In this document: piece by piece, positions 2,033 to 26,322 of the stretch | Position numbering within the stretch: the first letter of the stretch is position 1 | Layout: each line of letters begins with the position of its first letter | NCBI RefSeq assembly: GCF_003236295.1 | Contig: NZ_POTW01000009.1 | Location: 1-64,000 of the forward strand | Source of the DNA: Jiangella anatolica | Lineage (GTDB): Bacteria; Actinomycetota; Actinomycetes; Jiangellales; Jiangellaceae | DNA length: 64,000 nt | Direction of reading: 5' to 3' | Notes under the pieces: generated by a model | The model's input: only the letters and a program-made list of their open reading frames with translations | Told to the model about the DNA's origin: nothing | Database searches by the model: none | Translations under genes and position numbers: made by a program

Positions 2033-3277
2033 TCAGCCTCCGTTGACGAGGCTGTGGAACGCCTCGGTAGTGGGTGCGATGGTGCCGGCGGGGCCGACCA
2101 CGGACGAGACGGCGTCGAGCGTCTTGAGCCCGTCGCCGGTGTTGAAGATGACGGTCTCGGCGTCGGGGTCGAGCTTCCCCTCGCGCAGCAGCTTGGCCAG
2201 GACGGCGACGGTGACACCGCCGGCGGTCTCGGCGAAGATGCCCTCGGTGCGGGCCAGCAGCCGGATCCCGTCGACCACTTCCTCGTCGCTGACGTCCTCG
2301 ACCGCGCCGCCGGTGCGCCGCGCGACGTCGAGCACGTACGGCCCGTCGGCCGGGTTGCCGATGGCCAGTGACTTGGCGATGGTGTCCGGGCGCACCGGCC
2401 GGACCACGTCGTGGCCCTCCTTGAACGCCGTCGCGACCGGGGAGCAGCCCGTGGCCTGCGCGCCGAAGATCGCCGGCGCGTCGCCCTCGACCAGGCCCAG
2501 CTGGACCAGCTCGCGGAACGCCTTGTCGACCTTGGTCAGCTGCGAGCCGCTGGCCACCGGGATCACGACCTGCTTCGGCAGCCGCCAGCCCAGCTGCTCG
2601 GTGGTCTCGTAGCCGAGCGTCTTGGAGCCCTCGGCGTAGTACGGCCGCACGTTGACGTTCACGAACGCCCAGTCGTCGTGCTCGCCGGCCAGCTCCGAGG
2701 CCAGCCGGTTGACGTCGTCGTAGTTCCCCTCGACGGCGACCAGCGTGGTGCCGTAGACGGCGCTCGTGACGATCTTCGGCCGCTCGAGGTTGCTCGGGAT
2801 GAACACGTAGCTGGTGATCCCGGCGCGGGCCGCCGCCGCGGCGACCGCGTTGGCCAGGTTCCCCGTCGACGGGCAGGCCAGCACCTTGAAGCCCAGCTCA
2901 CGCGCCGCCGCCAGCGCGACGGCCACCACGCGGTCCTTGAAGGAGTGGGTGGGGTTGGCGGCGTCGTTCTTGATCCAGAGAGCCTTCAGACCCAGCTCGC
3001 GGGCCAGGTTGTCCGCGCGGATCAGCGGCGTGAAGCCCGGGTCGGTGTTCGGGATCTCGGCGATGGTCTCGGGGACCGGGAGGAGGTCGCGGTAGCGCCA
3101 GATGGAGCGCGGGCCGCTCTCGATGCGCTCGCGCGTGATGGTGCCGAAGTCGTAGGCCACCTCCAGCGGGCCGAAGCACTCCAGGCACGCGTAGTAGGGG
3201 CCGAGCTCGACGGTGGCGCCGCACTCACGACATGAAAGGTGCGTGGCGCGCCCCAGGGCGGTTCCGGTGGTGGTCAT
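2033..3277 (-). CDS. thrC: Threonine synthase
   Basis: PLP enzyme converting O-phosphohomoserine to threonine. Length 414 residues, normal for the long actinobacterial type. An N-terminal ribbon has Cys16/Cys19 and Cys31/Cys34 (CREC, CLEC). The PLP lysine is Lys114 in NPTHSFKDRVV, and the phosphate-binding region STGNLANAVAAAAA and C-terminal FNTGDGLKTLDAV follow. The ATG at 3277 lies only 17 bases after the SAM-I riboswitch; an AAGGGA ribosome-binding site sits between them, directly next to the P1 stem. It is cotranscribed with cysO. Control by SAM is unusual and makes sense if threonine competes with methionine for O-phosphohomoserine. Identity is secure; the regulatory logic is inferred. 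Confidence 0.96.
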   Translation of the reverse strand: MTTTGTALGRATHLSCRECGATVELGPYYACLECFGPLEVAYDFGTITRERIESGPRSIWRYRDLLPVPETIAEIPNTDPGFTPLIRADNLARELGLKALWIKNDAANPTHSFKDRVVAVALAAARELGFKVLACPSTGNLANAVAAAAARAGITSYVFIPSNLERPKIVTSAVYGTTLVAVEGNYDDVNRLASELAGEHDDWAFVNVNVRPYYAEGSKTLGYETTEQLGWRLPKQVVIPVASGSQLTKVDKAFRELVQLGLVEGDAPAIFGAQATGCSPVATAFKEGHDVVRPVRPDTIAKSLAIGNPADGPYVLDVARRTGGAVEDVSDEEVVDGIRLLARTEGIFAETAGGVTVAVLAKLLREGKLDPDAETVIFNTGDGLKTLDAVSSVVGPAGTIAPTTEAFHSLVNGG

Positions 3278-3294
3278 GCTGCTGCGGATCCCTT

Positions 3295-3406
3295 CTCATC
3301 TCTCCCACCTCATGGGCGGGCCGGAATTGGCACCGTCATCGCGCTGATCGACACGGACGGTTGCCGGAGCTTCGACGGGCCGGTCCCTCGGCTCCTCTGG
3401 ATGAGG
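3295..3406 (-). promoter_or_regulatory. SAM-I (S-box) riboswitch upstream of thrC-cysO
   Basis: Read on the minus strand, the element opens with CUCAUCC and closes with GAUGAG, a perfect P1 stem. Between them lie the S-box hallmarks in order: CAGAGG-GCCGAGGGACCGGCCC, GAAGCUCCGGCAACC, GGUGCCAAUUCCGGCCC and the run into GAGAGAUGAG. These match the SAM-I consensus (GAGGGA, GGCAACC, GGUGCCAAUUC), so binding of S-adenosylmethionine is expected from the family. The 3' P1 strand is followed at once by the thrC ribosome-binding site, with no terminator stem visible, so I favour control of translation initiation. That mechanism is inferred. Confidence 0.9.
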
Positions 3407-3452: not shown

Positions 3453-3494
3453 GTATCCACGATGCGAGACGATTTTGTATCGCATCGTGGATAC
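3453..3494. terminator. Perfect 15-bp inverted repeat after the doc gene
   Basis: GTATCCACGATGCGA at 3453-3467 is the exact reverse complement of 3480-3494, with a 12-base loop (gacgattttgta). It starts four bases beyond the doc stop codon and lies between the toxin-antitoxin unit and the thrC leader. A transcription terminator for the doc transcript is the simplest reading. There is no U-tract, which is common in high-GC actinomycetes. The AT-rich loop and unusually perfect stem also leave room for a protein-binding operator upstream of thrC. Confidence 0.55.
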
Positions 3495-3497
3495 CCA

Positions 3498-3881
3498 TCA
3501 GGCGAGCAGTTCCGCGTTCGCCACGAGCCAGGCCGCCATCTCGGCCAGCTCGAGCTTTCCTTCGGCGACGGCGATCACGAAGTCATACGCCTCGTCCTGG
3601 TCGACGTCGAGCAGGCTCATGCCGTTGTCGAGCAGGAAGACGACCGTCGCCGCCCACGCCAGGCGCTTGTTGCCGTCGATCAGTGGGTGATTGCGAGCCA
3701 ACGACTCCAGCAAGGCCGCTGCCTTCGTGGGCAGATCCGGATACGCGTCGGCCCCGAACATCGAGGCCTGCGGCCGGTGCACCGCGGAGTCGAGCAGGCC
3801 TAGGTCCCGGAGCTCGGCCGGGCGGCCGAGTACGACCTCAGCCGTGTCGAGCACGTCGGCGAGGCTGAGGTAGACCGTCAT
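3498..3881 (-). CDS. doc: Doc-type toxin (Fic/Doc family)
   Basis: A 127-residue Doc-like toxin. Characterised Doc phosphorylates EF-Tu and blocks translation. The Fic core is HPLIDGNKRLAW, with His65, Asn71, Lys72 and Arg73. The second motif position is Pro instead of the usual Phe, as in several chromosomal Doc proteins. The N-terminal DVLDTAEVVLGRPAELRDLGLLDSAVHRP segment is typical of death-on-curing proteins. The ATG overlaps the antitoxin stop by four bases (ATGA), giving translational coupling. Length and motifs are intact, so it is probably functional. The partner is a ribbon-helix-helix protein and not a Phd-type protein. Confidence 0.85.
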   Translation of the reverse strand: MTVYLSLADVLDTAEVVLGRPAELRDLGLLDSAVHRPQASMFGADAYPDLPTKAAALLESLARNHPLIDGNKRLAWAATVVFLLDNGMSLLDVDQDEAYDFVIAVAEGKLELAEMAAWLVANAELLA

Positions 3882-4081
3882 TCCGCGAGGCGAGCCAGCA
3901 GGCCGGCGTGCCGGTCCTTGACCTCGTTCGCCAGCCGCTTGATGTGCTCGGACCGATCGCCCTGCTCGATGCGATCAACGAGAGCGAGCCGGACGACCTC
4001 GTGCATGGACCGATGCTCGCGCTCGGCCTGCCGCCGCAGCGCCTCGGTCTCTTCGTCGGTGAGTCGCAGTGTCATCGCCAT
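3878..4081 (-). CDS. Ribbon-helix-helix antitoxin paired with Doc
   Basis: A 67-residue protein: N-terminal strand MAMTLRLTDEETEALRRQA, then a helical region MHEVVRLALVDRIEQG, the CopG/Arc-type ribbon-helix-helix pattern. The C-terminal half (SEHIKRLANEVKDRHAGLLARLAE) would wrap the toxin. It is the first gene of the pair and overlaps doc by four bases. Antitoxins of this class normally repress their own promoter through the ribbon-helix-helix domain; the promoter would lie at 4082-4110, a short gap from otsB. The role is inferred from fold and context. Confidence 0.78.
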   Translation of the reverse strand: MAMTLRLTDEETEALRRQAEREHRSMHEVVRLALVDRIEQGDRSEHIKRLANEVKDRHAGLLARLAE

Positions 4082-4110: not shown

Positions 4111-4887
4111 TCAGTCGAGGGCGGCGAGCTCGCGCAGCAGCGCCTGAACCCCGGGCGGCCCGGGCACGACGATGTCGGCGGCGGCGCGCAGCTCGGCCGA
4201 GGCCTCCTCGGCGTCCGAGCAGACGACCAGCCCGACGAGGCCGGACGAGGACAGCTCCCGCACCGCGGCGACCGCGGGCAGGTCGCCGAGGTCGTCGCCG
4301 GCGTAGAGGACGGCGGTGGCGCCGGTCTCGGCGACCAGCGCCCGGATCGCCAAGCCCTTGTCGACGCCGGCCGGGCGCAGCTCCAGCACGAACCGGCCGG
4401 GCGTCACCTGCAGCCCGGCCTCGGCCGCGACGGCGTCGGCGTGCGGCCGTAGCTCCGCCAGCGCCGCCGCCGGGTCGGGCGCGGACCGGGTGTGCAGCGC
4501 CACCGAGTGGTGCTTGTCCTCGACGGCGACGCCGGGCCGGACAGCGGCCAGCTCGGCCACGCGGCGCCGGGCGAGGTCGACGCCGTCGTCGGCGCCGGGC
4601 GTGGTCAGCTCGCCGCCGGACCAGCGCTGCAGCCCGTAGTGCCCGAGCACCACCAGGCCGGGCACGTCGGCGAGCGAGCCCAGCCGCACCGCGTCCGCCG
4701 CCGGCCGGCCGGTGACGACGGCGACCCGGGCCACGCGCCCGGCGACCGCCGTCAGCACGTCCGCCGTCCCCGGCAGCGCGACGGCCGCATCGGGCGAGGA
4801 GACGATCGGCGACAGCACGCCGTCGAAGTCGAGGGCCACGAGGGTCCGGTCCAGCCGGCCGGACAGCGCTCGCAGCCGCGGCGTCAC
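4111..4887 (-). CDS. otsB: Trehalose-6-phosphate phosphatase
   Basis: HAD-family phosphatase removing phosphate from trehalose 6-phosphate, the second step of OtsA-OtsB trehalose synthesis. Length 258 residues. Motif I is LDFDGVLSPIV with the nucleophilic and acid Asp at about residues 19 and 21. Further motifs are VVTGRPAAD, GHYGLQRW (typical of OtsB), ELRPAGVDKGLAIRALV (motif III Lys) and YAGDDLGDLPA (motif IV). It overlaps the upstream LytR_C gene by four bases on the same strand. otsA lies about 1 kb away on the opposite strand. The cytoplasmic role in osmoprotection or spore carbon storage is family knowledge. Confidence 0.94.
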   Translation of the reverse strand: MTPRLRALSGRLDRTLVALDFDGVLSPIVSSPDAAVALPGTADVLTAVAGRVARVAVVTGRPAADAVRLGSLADVPGLVVLGHYGLQRWSGGELTTPGADDGVDLARRRVAELAAVRPGVAVEDKHHSVALHTRSAPDPAAALAELRPHADAVAAEAGLQVTPGRFVLELRPAGVDKGLAIRALVAETGATAVLYAGDDLGDLPAVAAVRELSSSGLVGLVVCSDAEEASAELRAAADIVVPGPPGVQALLRELAALD

Positions 4888-5429
4888 TCCGACTCGACCT
4901 CGTCGAGGTAGTCGTCGACGAGCACGACGACCAGGCGGGTGTCGTTGAACGGCTCGACGTTGGGCATGCTCCGGCCGATCTCCGGGAACTGCGCCATCAG
5001 CGCGTCGGCCGCCTCCTCCATGCCCTCGGGCACGTAGACCGTGGTCTCCGGGACGTTGCCGGTGAACTCGCTGACGGCGGCGACCTCCCAGCCGCCCTCC
5101 TCGAACCGCTCGCGCGCCTGCTCCTCCAGCCCCGGCTCGTCGGTCTGGTTCAGCACGCCCAGCGGCTCGCGGGCCTCCGGGTCGGCGGTGACCGGGCCGG
5201 TCGGGTCGGCGGACGGCGGCTCGGTGGCCGGCGGCTCCGTGGCCGGGGGCTCGGTGGCGGGCGGTTCCGTCGCCGGCGGCTCGGCGCCGCTCACGTCGCC
5301 CGCCGCGACGTCGTCGGGGGTGCTGTCGTCGGTGTCGTCACCGAAGTACCAGAGCAGCGCGAGGACGACCGCCACCGTGCCGACGAGCGCGACGAGGGAC
5401 GGCCAGAGCCGTTGAAGTCGGTCACCCAT
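4884..5429 (-). CDS. Membrane-anchored LytR_C domain protein
   Basis: About 181 residues from the ATG at 5429; an ATG at 5456 would add nine. A short cytoplasmic start (MGDRLQRLWP) leads into one transmembrane helix (about 11-28), an acidic Thr/Pro-rich linker with four PPATE repeats (51-70), and a C-terminal LytR_C-type domain (VLNQTDEPGLEEQARERF, TTVYVPEGMEEAADALM, LVVVLVDDYLDEVE). LytR_C domains occur on cell-envelope proteins next to LytR-CpsA-Psr enzymes; their ligand is not settled. It is translationally coupled to otsB, which suggests shared expression but no obvious biochemical link. Confidence 0.75.
   Translation of the reverse strand: MGDRLQRLWPSLVALVGTVAVVLALLWYFGDDTDDSTPDDVAAGDVSGAEPPATEPPATEPPATEPPATEPPSADPTGPVTADPEAREPLGVLNQTDEPGLEEQARERFEEGGWEVAAVSEFTGNVPETTVYVPEGMEEAADALMAQFPEIGRSMPNVEPFNDTRLVVVLVDDYLDEVESE
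5220..5279 (-). repeat. Four tandem 15-bp units encoding PPATE
   Basis: The linker of the LytR_C protein is coded by four head-to-tail 15-base units with a few silent differences, each giving Pro-Pro-Ala-Thr-Glu. In-frame unit gain or loss would only change linker length. It probably spans the peptidoglycan between membrane anchor and distal domain. Confidence 0.8.
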
Positions 5430-5538
5430 CGTCACAGGATCAGGAGCGTACGCCACGCGACCGGGCGGAAGCGAGGCACTCGGCCCTGGCGCGGCCGATC
5501 AAGATCAGCGACACTGTCGTATGGACCGGCGCTCCCGC

Positions 5539-5784
5539 TCATGCCTCCGCGGCGAGCGAGCGTCCGGATCGGGTCCGCAACCGCCGCGAGCGCTGCCGAC
5601 GCAGCCGGCGCACCAGCAGCGGGTCGTGCGCCAGTGCCTCCGGCCGGTCGATCAGCGCGTTCAGCACTTGGTAGTAGCGCGTCGCGGACAGCCCAAACTC
5701 ACTGCGTACGGCTTGTTCCTTCGCTCCTGGGTACTTCCACCAGCGGTGCTCGAACTCGAGGATCTCGCGCTCGTGGTCGTCCAT
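5539..5784 (-). CDS. DUF3263 protein, small DNA-binding-like factor
   Basis: An 81-residue protein from the ATG at 5784 (MDDHEREILEFEHRWWKY). It carries the DUF3263 signature throughout: GAKEQAVRSEFGLSATRYYQ, then VLNALIDRPEALAHDP and a basic tail VRRLRRQRSRRLRTRS. The pattern resembles a short helix-turn-helix, so DNA binding is plausible but unproven for the family. TACGAT lies seven bases before the start, a leaderless promoter. An upstream in-frame start at 5823 would overlap the divergent otsA promoter and is less likely. It is divergent from otsA, a neighbourhood that recurs in actinobacteria from memory. Confidence 0.82.
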   Translation of the reverse strand: MDDHEREILEFEHRWWKYPGAKEQAVRSEFGLSATRYYQVLNALIDRPEALAHDPLLVRRLRRQRSRRLRTRSGRSLAAEA

Positions 5785-5864
5785 ACCCGCCATCGTAGGC
5801 AAGGGGTGTGACAACCCAGGCACCGCACAACTCGGTTACCGTTGTCGGCACGAGGAGGCCCCAT

Positions 5865-7265
5865 TTGTCCACGACTGGAACGAGTAGCTTCGTCGTAGTC
5901 GCCAACCGGCTGCCGGTCGATCGCGTGTCGACAGCCGATGGCACGACCACCTGGCGCAGGAGCCCCGGCGGACTGGTCACCGCGCTGGCCCCGGTGATGC
6001 GGGCCTATGACGGCGCATGGGTGGGCTGGACCGGCTCGCCCGACGACGCGCCGGAGCCGTTCTCGACCGACGACATGGACCTGGTCCCCGTGCCGTTGTC
6101 GGCGGAGGAGATCGCGCTCTACTACGAGGGGTTCTCCAACGCCACGCTGTGGCCGCTGTACCACGACGTCATCGTCCAGCCGGAGTACCACCGGGAGTGG
6201 TGGGACGCCTACCGCGCCGTCAACCAGCGCTTCGCCCGCGCCGCCGCCGAGGTGGCCGCCGAGAACGCCGTCGTGTTCATCCAGGACTACCAGCTGCAGC
6301 TGGTGCCGCGGCTGCTGCGCGAGCTGCGCCCGGACCTCAAGATCGGCTTCTTCCTGCACATCCCGTTCCCGCCGACGGAGCTGTTCGCACAGCTGCCGTG
6401 GCGCAGGCAGATCCTCGAGGGCCTGCTCGGCGCGGACCTCGTCGGGTTCCAGCGGGCCGGCGCGGCCAGCAACTTCGAGTCGCTGGCCGAGACGTTCGCC
6501 TCGGCGCGGCTGGTCGACGAGAGCCTGGTGCTCGACGACGGCCGCGAGGTGCTGGCCCGCTCGTTCCCCATCTCGATCCAGGTGGAGGAGGTGGCGAGGC
6601 TCGCCGCCGACCCCGAGGTGCAGCAGCGGGCCGCCACGATCCGCGAGGAGGTCGGGTCGCCGCGCTACATCCTGCTCGGCGTCGACCGGCTCGACTACAC
6701 GAAGGGCATCGGGCACCGGCTCAAGGCGTTCGGCGAGCTGCTCGCCGAGGACGCCATCACCCCCGAGGAGGCGGTGCTGGTCCAGGTGGCCACGCCCAGC
6801 CGCGAGCGGGTCGAGGCCTACCAGACGCTGCGCGACGATGTCGAGCTGGCGGTCGGGCGCATCAACGGCGACTACGGTCGCATCGGGCACCCCGCGGTGC
6901 ACTACCTGCACTCGTCCTACGACCGCTCCGAGCTGGTCTCGCTGCTGCTGGCCGCCGACGTCATGGTCGTGACACCGTTGCGCGACGGCATGAACCTGGT
7001 CGCGAAGGAGTACGTCAGCGCCCGCGCCGACCTGCGCGGCGCGCTCGTGCTGTCCGAGTTCGCCGGCGCGGCCGACGAGCTCGGCGAGGGCGCGTTCCTC
7101 GTCAACCCGCACGACATCGACGGGATGAAACGCACCATGCTGACGGCCATGCGGCTCGAGCCGGCCGAGGCCGAACAGCGCATGAAGCTGCTGCGCGACC
7201 GCGTCACCAGCCACGACATCTCCCGCTGGGCCACCGAGATCCTGACCGCGCTACGGGCGATCTGA
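5865..7265 (+). CDS. otsA: Trehalose-6-phosphate synthase
   Basis: GT20 glycosyltransferase joining UDP- or GDP-glucose to glucose 6-phosphate. From the TTG at 5865 it has 466 residues, the normal family length. GAGGAGG at 5851-5857 gives ideal spacing to that TTG, so I prefer it to a GTG at 5808. Motifs in order: [11 protein letters not shown] near the N-terminus, [52 protein letters not shown] and [11 protein letters not shown], together covering both substrate sites. With otsB nearby on the other strand the complete two-step pathway is present. TACCGT at 5837-5842 is a possible -10 box. Confidence 0.95.
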
Positions 7266-25049: not shown

Positions 25050-25194
25050 ACGTCACGCCCGGGTGACGTGGCGCACGCCGCCATATAGTGTCTCGTAACA
25101 CCCGCAACCTGGCAGTAACCCGCGGGACAACTTCATACACGGGTTTCATAACCCGGGCCACTTCACTACGGATCGTCCGGCACGTACCTGCCGG
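25050..25194. promoter_or_regulatory. Divergent lacI-msiK control region with three inverted repeats
   Basis: Inverted repeats lie at 25050-25069 (ACGTCAC-gcccgg-GTGACGT), 25140-25155 (CGGGTT-tcat-AACCCG) and 25177-25194 (CCGGCA-cgtacc-TGCCGG). TATAGT at 25084-25089 is a possible -10 box for msiK. None has the ACCGGT core seen in the 51-56 kb locus, so this LacI protein likely recognises a different site. Which repeat binds which regulator cannot be read from the sequence. Confidence 0.45.
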
Positions 25195-25208
25195 TGAAGG
25201 GAAACACG

Positions 25209-26322
<1,114 letters not shown>

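Follow-up and report, generated by a model that had tools for sequence, protein, structure and literature searches.

In the CysM/CysO/Mec system of Mycobacterium tuberculosis, a PLP enzyme takes the thiocarboxylate sulfur of a carrier protein ending in Gly-Gly and displaces phosphate, converting O-phosphoserine to cysteine. The MetY/HcyS system of Wolinella succinogenes makes homocysteine in a carrier-dependent manner from an acylated homoserine substrate. In Streptomyces, work by Hasebe from 2024 reportedly places metO downstream of metM, and many members of the genus are said to lack the usual homocysteine genes. Excerpts of a paper that cites this work (Hasebe et al. 2024, AEM 90:e01247-24) state that Hasebe et al. 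identified MetM of Streptomyces as a homocysteine synthase acting on O-phosphohomoserine; they give S. albulus metM an upstream SAM riboswitch, and also describe a carrier gene similar to S. albulus metO (PMC12172450). According to the same excerpts, a Microcystis homologue of MetM is a threonine deaminase that forms threonine weakly at high substrate and does not raise cell methionine (PMC12172450), so that some relatives may not serve as homocysteine synthases in vivo. In S. lividans TK24, an RF00162 element located before SLIV_16930-SLIV_16925 is labelled 'Threonine biosynthesis' in the accessible portion of another study (PMC8079986). The accessible portions of PMC12452182, PMC8780764, and PMC13257386 do not mention MetM.

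Here we analyse a locus of this kind in Jiangella anatolica, contained in a 64,000-nucleotide stretch of DNA that we refer to as the window. The locus combines a ThrC-like enzyme distinct from canonical ThrC, an adjacent carrier ending in Gly-Gly, and a SAM riboswitch upstream. Set beside the observed riboswitch, gene families, paralogues, conservation, and lack of a MetX-grade or MetA match, analogy with the published Streptomyces system (from which we take the reaction) makes it highly likely that the two genes form a SAM-repressed methionine operon, metM-metO, in which MetM would make homocysteine from O-phosphohomoserine and sulfur delivered by MetO.

The SAM-I aptamer and the two-gene unit

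A SAM riboswitch is present on the minus strand at 3407-3293, where cmscan against Rfam matches the SAM-I (S-box) aptamer family RF00162 with 84.7 bits (E 1.4e-18). The match covers the full length of the covariance model (positions 1-108 of 108) and exceeds the gathering score of 44.4 bits, in agreement with the first-pass annotation of this DNA, which had described a complete SAM-I motif. The span given there, 3278-3406, corresponds to the aptamer together with the spacer that follows it (3292-3278, minus strand); the distance to the gene needs revision from 17 bases to 15 nt, measured from the aptamer end to the ATG at 3277. A spacer of 15 nt is too short to accommodate a separate terminator. 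In the genome to which the window belongs, this is the single SAM-I match, located in front of the metM-type gene (in a search run with strict filters, under which weak matches can be lost).

Immediately downstream, and on the same strand as the aptamer, lies an open reading frame at 3277-2033 encoding a ThrC-like PLP enzyme of 414 aa (TIGR00260 and PF00291), which we assign as a metM-type gene and which would ordinarily be annotated thrC. It is followed after 2 nt by a minus-strand frame at 2030-1746 encoding a ThiS/MoaD-family sulfur carrier of 94 aa (PF02597) that ends in AVAGG, which we assign as metO type. The shared strand and the 2-nt gap make a single transcript likely, so that the earlier proposal of cotranscription holds for the second gene, if not the name cysO that was attached to it. 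Between positions 1500 and 3700, a promoter scan returned no sigma-70-like promoter, and the three terminator-like sites found there are all on the plus strand.

Several features of the flanking sequence may be recorded alongside. A Fic/DOC-family gene and a ribbon-helix-helix gene upstream of it (3498-4081), likely a toxin-antitoxin pair, lie directly upstream of the operon. A perfect 15-bp inverted repeat at 3453-3494 (arms 3453-3467 and 3480-3494, with a 12-base loop) sits between the stop of the Fic/Doc gene and the riboswitch, and may end the upstream transcript. Further away, a minus-strand trehalose-phosphatase gene lies near a plus-strand glycosyltransferase family 20 gene (4111-7265), as in trehalose synthesis, and an msiK RNA motif (RF01747) occurs at 25151-25209 (60.2 bits, cut-off 33).

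Identity of the enzyme and its carrier

By profile score alone, the enzyme could be taken for a threonine synthase: it passes the NCBIfam thrC model TIGR00260 with 278 bits (cut-off 167) and nearly reaches another threonine synthase model (294 bits, cut-off 303). A second true threonine synthase, repressed by SAM so that O-phosphohomoserine is conserved or threonine and methionine are kept in balance, would fit these scores, and a cyanobacterial homologue did give some threonine at high substrate, according to the excerpts of PMC12172450. We nevertheless regard this explanation as very unlikely. A canonical thrC lies beside thrB on a different contig (C223) of the same genome, and its product is 35% identical to the window protein. 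The same duplication recurs in all ten genomes of Jiangella and relatives considered, each of which has two proteins over the thrC cut-off (one of the window type and one canonical) and a thrB over its own cut-off. Moreover, threonine synthesis offers no obvious role for a sulfur-carrier partner.

The phylogenetic evidence points the same way. In a tree of 66 proteins, built by a quick method from 67 rows of which one was dropped as too short, the MetM sequences (41 rows, SH-aLRT 96) are separate from canonical ThrC (20 rows, SH-aLRT 99), and five further ThrC-like proteins, with 35-40% identity, make up a third group. At each of seven positions where the 20 canonical ThrC proteins are invariant, 40 or 41 of the 41 MetM rows have a different residue (G64V, T88L, S155N, N157R, R160Y, N188S, and D323T, in Thermus numbering as computed). 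One of these aligns to Arg160 of Thermus ThrC, which we take to be a residue that binds the substrate phosphate. Conversely, an N-terminal CxxC...CxxC pattern is found in 41/41 MetM sequences, 0/20 canonical ThrC, and 3/5 members of the third group. The window enzyme thus neither groups with the thrB-linked ThrC proteins nor keeps their invariant residues; the riboswitch-linked enzyme is very probably a MetM-type paralogue of ThrC, and the gene name thrC given by the first-pass annotation is not retained. Threonine synthase proper was rejected as an assignment, given the separate canonical thrC-thrB pair, the clade of its own, and the replaced residues. The corollary that SAM throttles the threonine branch probably does not apply.

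The partner gene raises a related question of naming. Among solved structures, the window carrier best matches the corresponding chains of 3dwg/3dwm and 4n6e, which are carriers too. We take the 3dwg chain to be CysO (the structure entry says cfp10A). On the strength of this resemblance, and of a fold family shared with CysM and cysteate synthase, one could suppose that the regulated function is synthesis of cysteine or cysteate through a CysO-type carrier. A cluster suited to that role exists elsewhere in the genome: three genes in a row on contig C204 encode a JAMM-type protein, another carrier, and a cysteine synthase that scores 357 bits on TIGR01136 (cut-off 344). The nearest model for the JAMM-type protein is desampylase, at 76 bits and below the cut-off of 130; we presume the protein to be Mec. 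The C204 carrier is 49% identical to that of the window, which, unlike it, is not adjacent to cysM and mec; with a mec-cysO-cysM cluster located separately, the window carrier is better described as a second carrier than by the name cysO, and CysO proper was rejected for it. In addition, the window enzyme scores only 78 bits on the cysteate synthase model (cut-off 325), and at 26 loci the riboswitch stays with metM where an adjacent carrier gene is absent. Regulation of cysteine or cysteate synthesis is, in our assessment, extremely improbable. Assignment of the window enzyme itself as a cysteine or cysteate synthase was likewise rejected, on the grounds of paralogues, tree, and model scores.

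The C-termini of MetO-type carriers in the class show some variation. Among the 46 complete proteins of the 67 adjacent MetO (inspected among loci L060-L139, e.g., L074, L107, and L111), 33 end in Gly-Gly and 13 continue beyond it, with a single Cys in 11, Cys-Ala in one, and Ala in one. A Cys following Gly-Gly presumably resembles the CysO-cysteine product that is cut by Mec, and MetO proteins with residues past Gly-Gly may need trimming. Carriers from mec-cysM clusters vary as well, with a VAGG end in 9/21 (some of these frames are possibly misread), and 11 Chloroflexi loci within L206-L220 encode a carrier with two residues after Gly-Gly.

Homocysteine supply and conservation across the class

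We next consider how the genome containing the window could otherwise obtain homocysteine. Profile searches of this genome gave no MetX-grade match (the best MetX match has E 4.5e-5), no MetA match, and no HcyBio match. The HcyBio route was rejected, with PF01837 present in 0/138 genomes of the class and in 3 of 14 controls. At E 0.001, TIGR01392 matches in 131/138 genomes, none of them over the 500-bit cut-off (nor is it exceeded in any of the 14 controls); MetX was counted in the 72 of 138 genomes with 313-448 bits, the next match having 169 bits. The steps needed on either side of homocysteine formation in the proposed pathway have candidates: MetH is present with 1411 bits, and a ThiF-domain protein has MoeZ as its best NCBIfam match (489 bits on a domain fragment, against a full-length cut-off of 647).

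Two PLP proteins of Cys/Met metabolism are also encoded in the genome. One of them (G000:C237:29274-30392) passes the cystathionine gamma-synthase model NF005871 with 666 bits (cut-off 513) and might supply homocysteine otherwise. Under that explanation it would be the main source of homocysteine, perhaps working on O-phosphohomoserine as the plant enzyme does (according to the accessible part of PMC13257386), with MetM as an auxiliary. With neither a MetX-grade nor a MetA match found, one would not expect the acylated substrate that such enzymes usually take, the protein may run as a gamma-lyase instead, and the only SAM-I match of the genome sits on metM; we consider this arrangement unlikely. 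Three of the seven Jiangella genomes (G183, G198, and G250) do carry MetX, in each case with an adjacent extra PF01053 gene of which no counterpart was seen in the genome of the window.

At the scale of the class, SAM-I matches (E 0.001) were found at 109 places in 105/138 genomes. Among the 107 places examined, 101 have a metM-type gene after the riboswitch and six (L125, L128, L129, L131, L135, and L136) do not. Two metM genomes without SAM-I (G161 and G205) retain just the 3' portion of metM, which would fit truncation at a contig end, and in G214, a SAM-I genome scored as metM-negative, a fragment of metM follows the riboswitch (L120). Conservation extends to named relatives: the homologous ThrC-like gene has a SAM-I directly in front of it in 20/20 scanned (20 of the 23 loci L142-L164). 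Six Jiangella species are among these; they are the closest named relatives, at 93-97% identity, among the best 80 of 92 loci. The scan of named loci covered 40 of these best 80 of 92; it found SAM-I at 11/12 other actinobacterial loci (the twelfth, L168, has only 112 bases upstream of the gene) and at 0/8 Chloroflexi loci scanned. None of the best 80 of 92 named loci is titled Streptomyces. In the excerpt available, a 2005 survey reported that the threonine and methionine operons of the Actinobacteria it covered were not preceded by conserved RNA structures (PMC1262725); for Actinobacteria, the present SAM-I results do not bear out that excerpted negative.

The carrier gene is less constant. 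It is adjacent in 67 of the 101 metM loci, was not found in 26 with at least 450 nt of room, and cannot be judged in 8; metO is thus not adjacent in 26 of 93 judgeable metM loci, and therefore the SAM-I riboswitch tracks metM and not the carrier gene. In 12 of the 26 genomes with a metO-less locus, we located the best carrier match, which in 12/12 lies beside Mec-like and CysM-like genes (this concerns the best match only, and some genomes have a second, weaker one). We infer that CysO supplies MetM where metO is not adjacent.

MetX or MetA is found in 42/101 metM genomes, versus 32/37 genomes without metM (Fisher p 2e-6, uncorrected for relatedness); when only genomes with completeness of 90% or more and contamination of 5% or less are counted, the figures are 39/87 and 29/31. 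Predictions of methionine need made from MetX and MetA alone are likely to mislead for many genomes, as 59/101 metM genomes have neither.

Predicted action of the switch and comparison with known systems

The arrangement of the leader suggests how SAM could act. A Shine-Dalgarno-like sequence, GAGAAGGGA, at 3297-3289 on the minus strand starts inside the 3' strand of the P1 helix (3300-3293). Folding calculations pair 3405-3400 with 3295-3300 at a probability of at least 0.97 (six pairs), and leave the two outermost pairs open; the mean unpaired value of the Shine-Dalgarno is 0.31 in the presence of the P1 5' strand and 0.77 in its absence. The calculation forms P1 even without SAM, and by itself shows no switching. 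The geometry recurs widely: in 98 of the 101 metM loci (three were left out, their Rfam end not being at P1), the median distance between the aptamer end and the start codon is 13 nt, and 97 of the loci have 25 nt or less. In 66/98 loci, the best Shine-Dalgarno match starts within the last bases of the aptamer; in 31/98 it starts 0-4 nt after the aptamer, and one truncated locus has none. Overlap with the aptamer 3' end in 66 of 98 loci suggests direct translational shut-off, and the data fit a model in which the ribosome site is blocked directly and no terminator is involved, a mechanism proposed from sequence and folding.

Taken together with the proposed chemistry, the pathway would run as follows. 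MetO would receive its sulfur, in the form of a thiocarboxylate, from a MoeZ-like enzyme that would first adenylate the C-terminal Gly-Gly; MetM would combine this sulfur with O-phosphohomoserine from the Hom/ThrB branch to give homocysteine, which MetH would methylate to methionine, leading on to SAM. Plentiful SAM would then stabilise the aptamer and the P1 helix, whose 3' strand holds the start of the Shine-Dalgarno, so that translation of metM would fall, and that of metO too, by coupling. SAM control of metM-metO is very probably ordinary end-product feedback, and the puzzle of SAM throttling threonine goes away because the genes were misnamed. The first-pass annotation had hinted at O-phosphohomoserine use and carrier-based sulfur assimilation, and had the right chemistry in view; the carrier as a constant target does not survive the 26 loci that lack an adjacent metO.

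A broader proposal is more tentative, and we put it forward as possible but somewhat doubtful: that SAM-I upstream of metM in Actinomycetota is a minimal switch, in which the P1 3' strand doubles as the Shine-Dalgarno start with no separate expression platform, that CysO feeds MetM where metO is not adjacent, and that MetO tails past Gly-Gly are trimmed, perhaps by Mec. If CysO does feed MetM, one carrier would serve both cysteine and methionine. The very short metM leader would also offer a simple handle on SAM control of translation in actinomycetes. More generally, the case illustrates how gene names can conceal a pathway: SAM control of a 'threonine synthase' is paradoxical, whereas SAM control of a homocysteine synthase is plain feedback. 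The pattern across the class suggests that 'thrC' genes preceded by an S-box in actinomycetes deserve a check for metM identity.

Among described systems, CysM/CysO/Mec of M. tuberculosis shares with the window a PLP enzyme and a Gly-Gly carrier, but makes cysteine, and its cluster is separate in the genome of the window. MetY/HcyS of W. succinogenes shares carrier-dependent homocysteine synthesis, but its PLP enzyme belongs to another family and acts on an acylated homoserine. The SLIV_16930-SLIV_16925 unit of S. lividans likewise has SAM-I before two genes and was read as threonine biosynthesis, as this locus had been; the accessible description gives no methionine role (PMC8079986). MetM/MetO of S. 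albulus, as excerpted, likewise has a ThrC-like enzyme, a metO carrier gene, and a SAM riboswitch upstream of metM (PMC12172450), and differs in belonging to another genus. The window locus is very probably a representative, in Jiangella, of the known MetM/MetO pathway and its SAM-I switch, an arrangement already in print.
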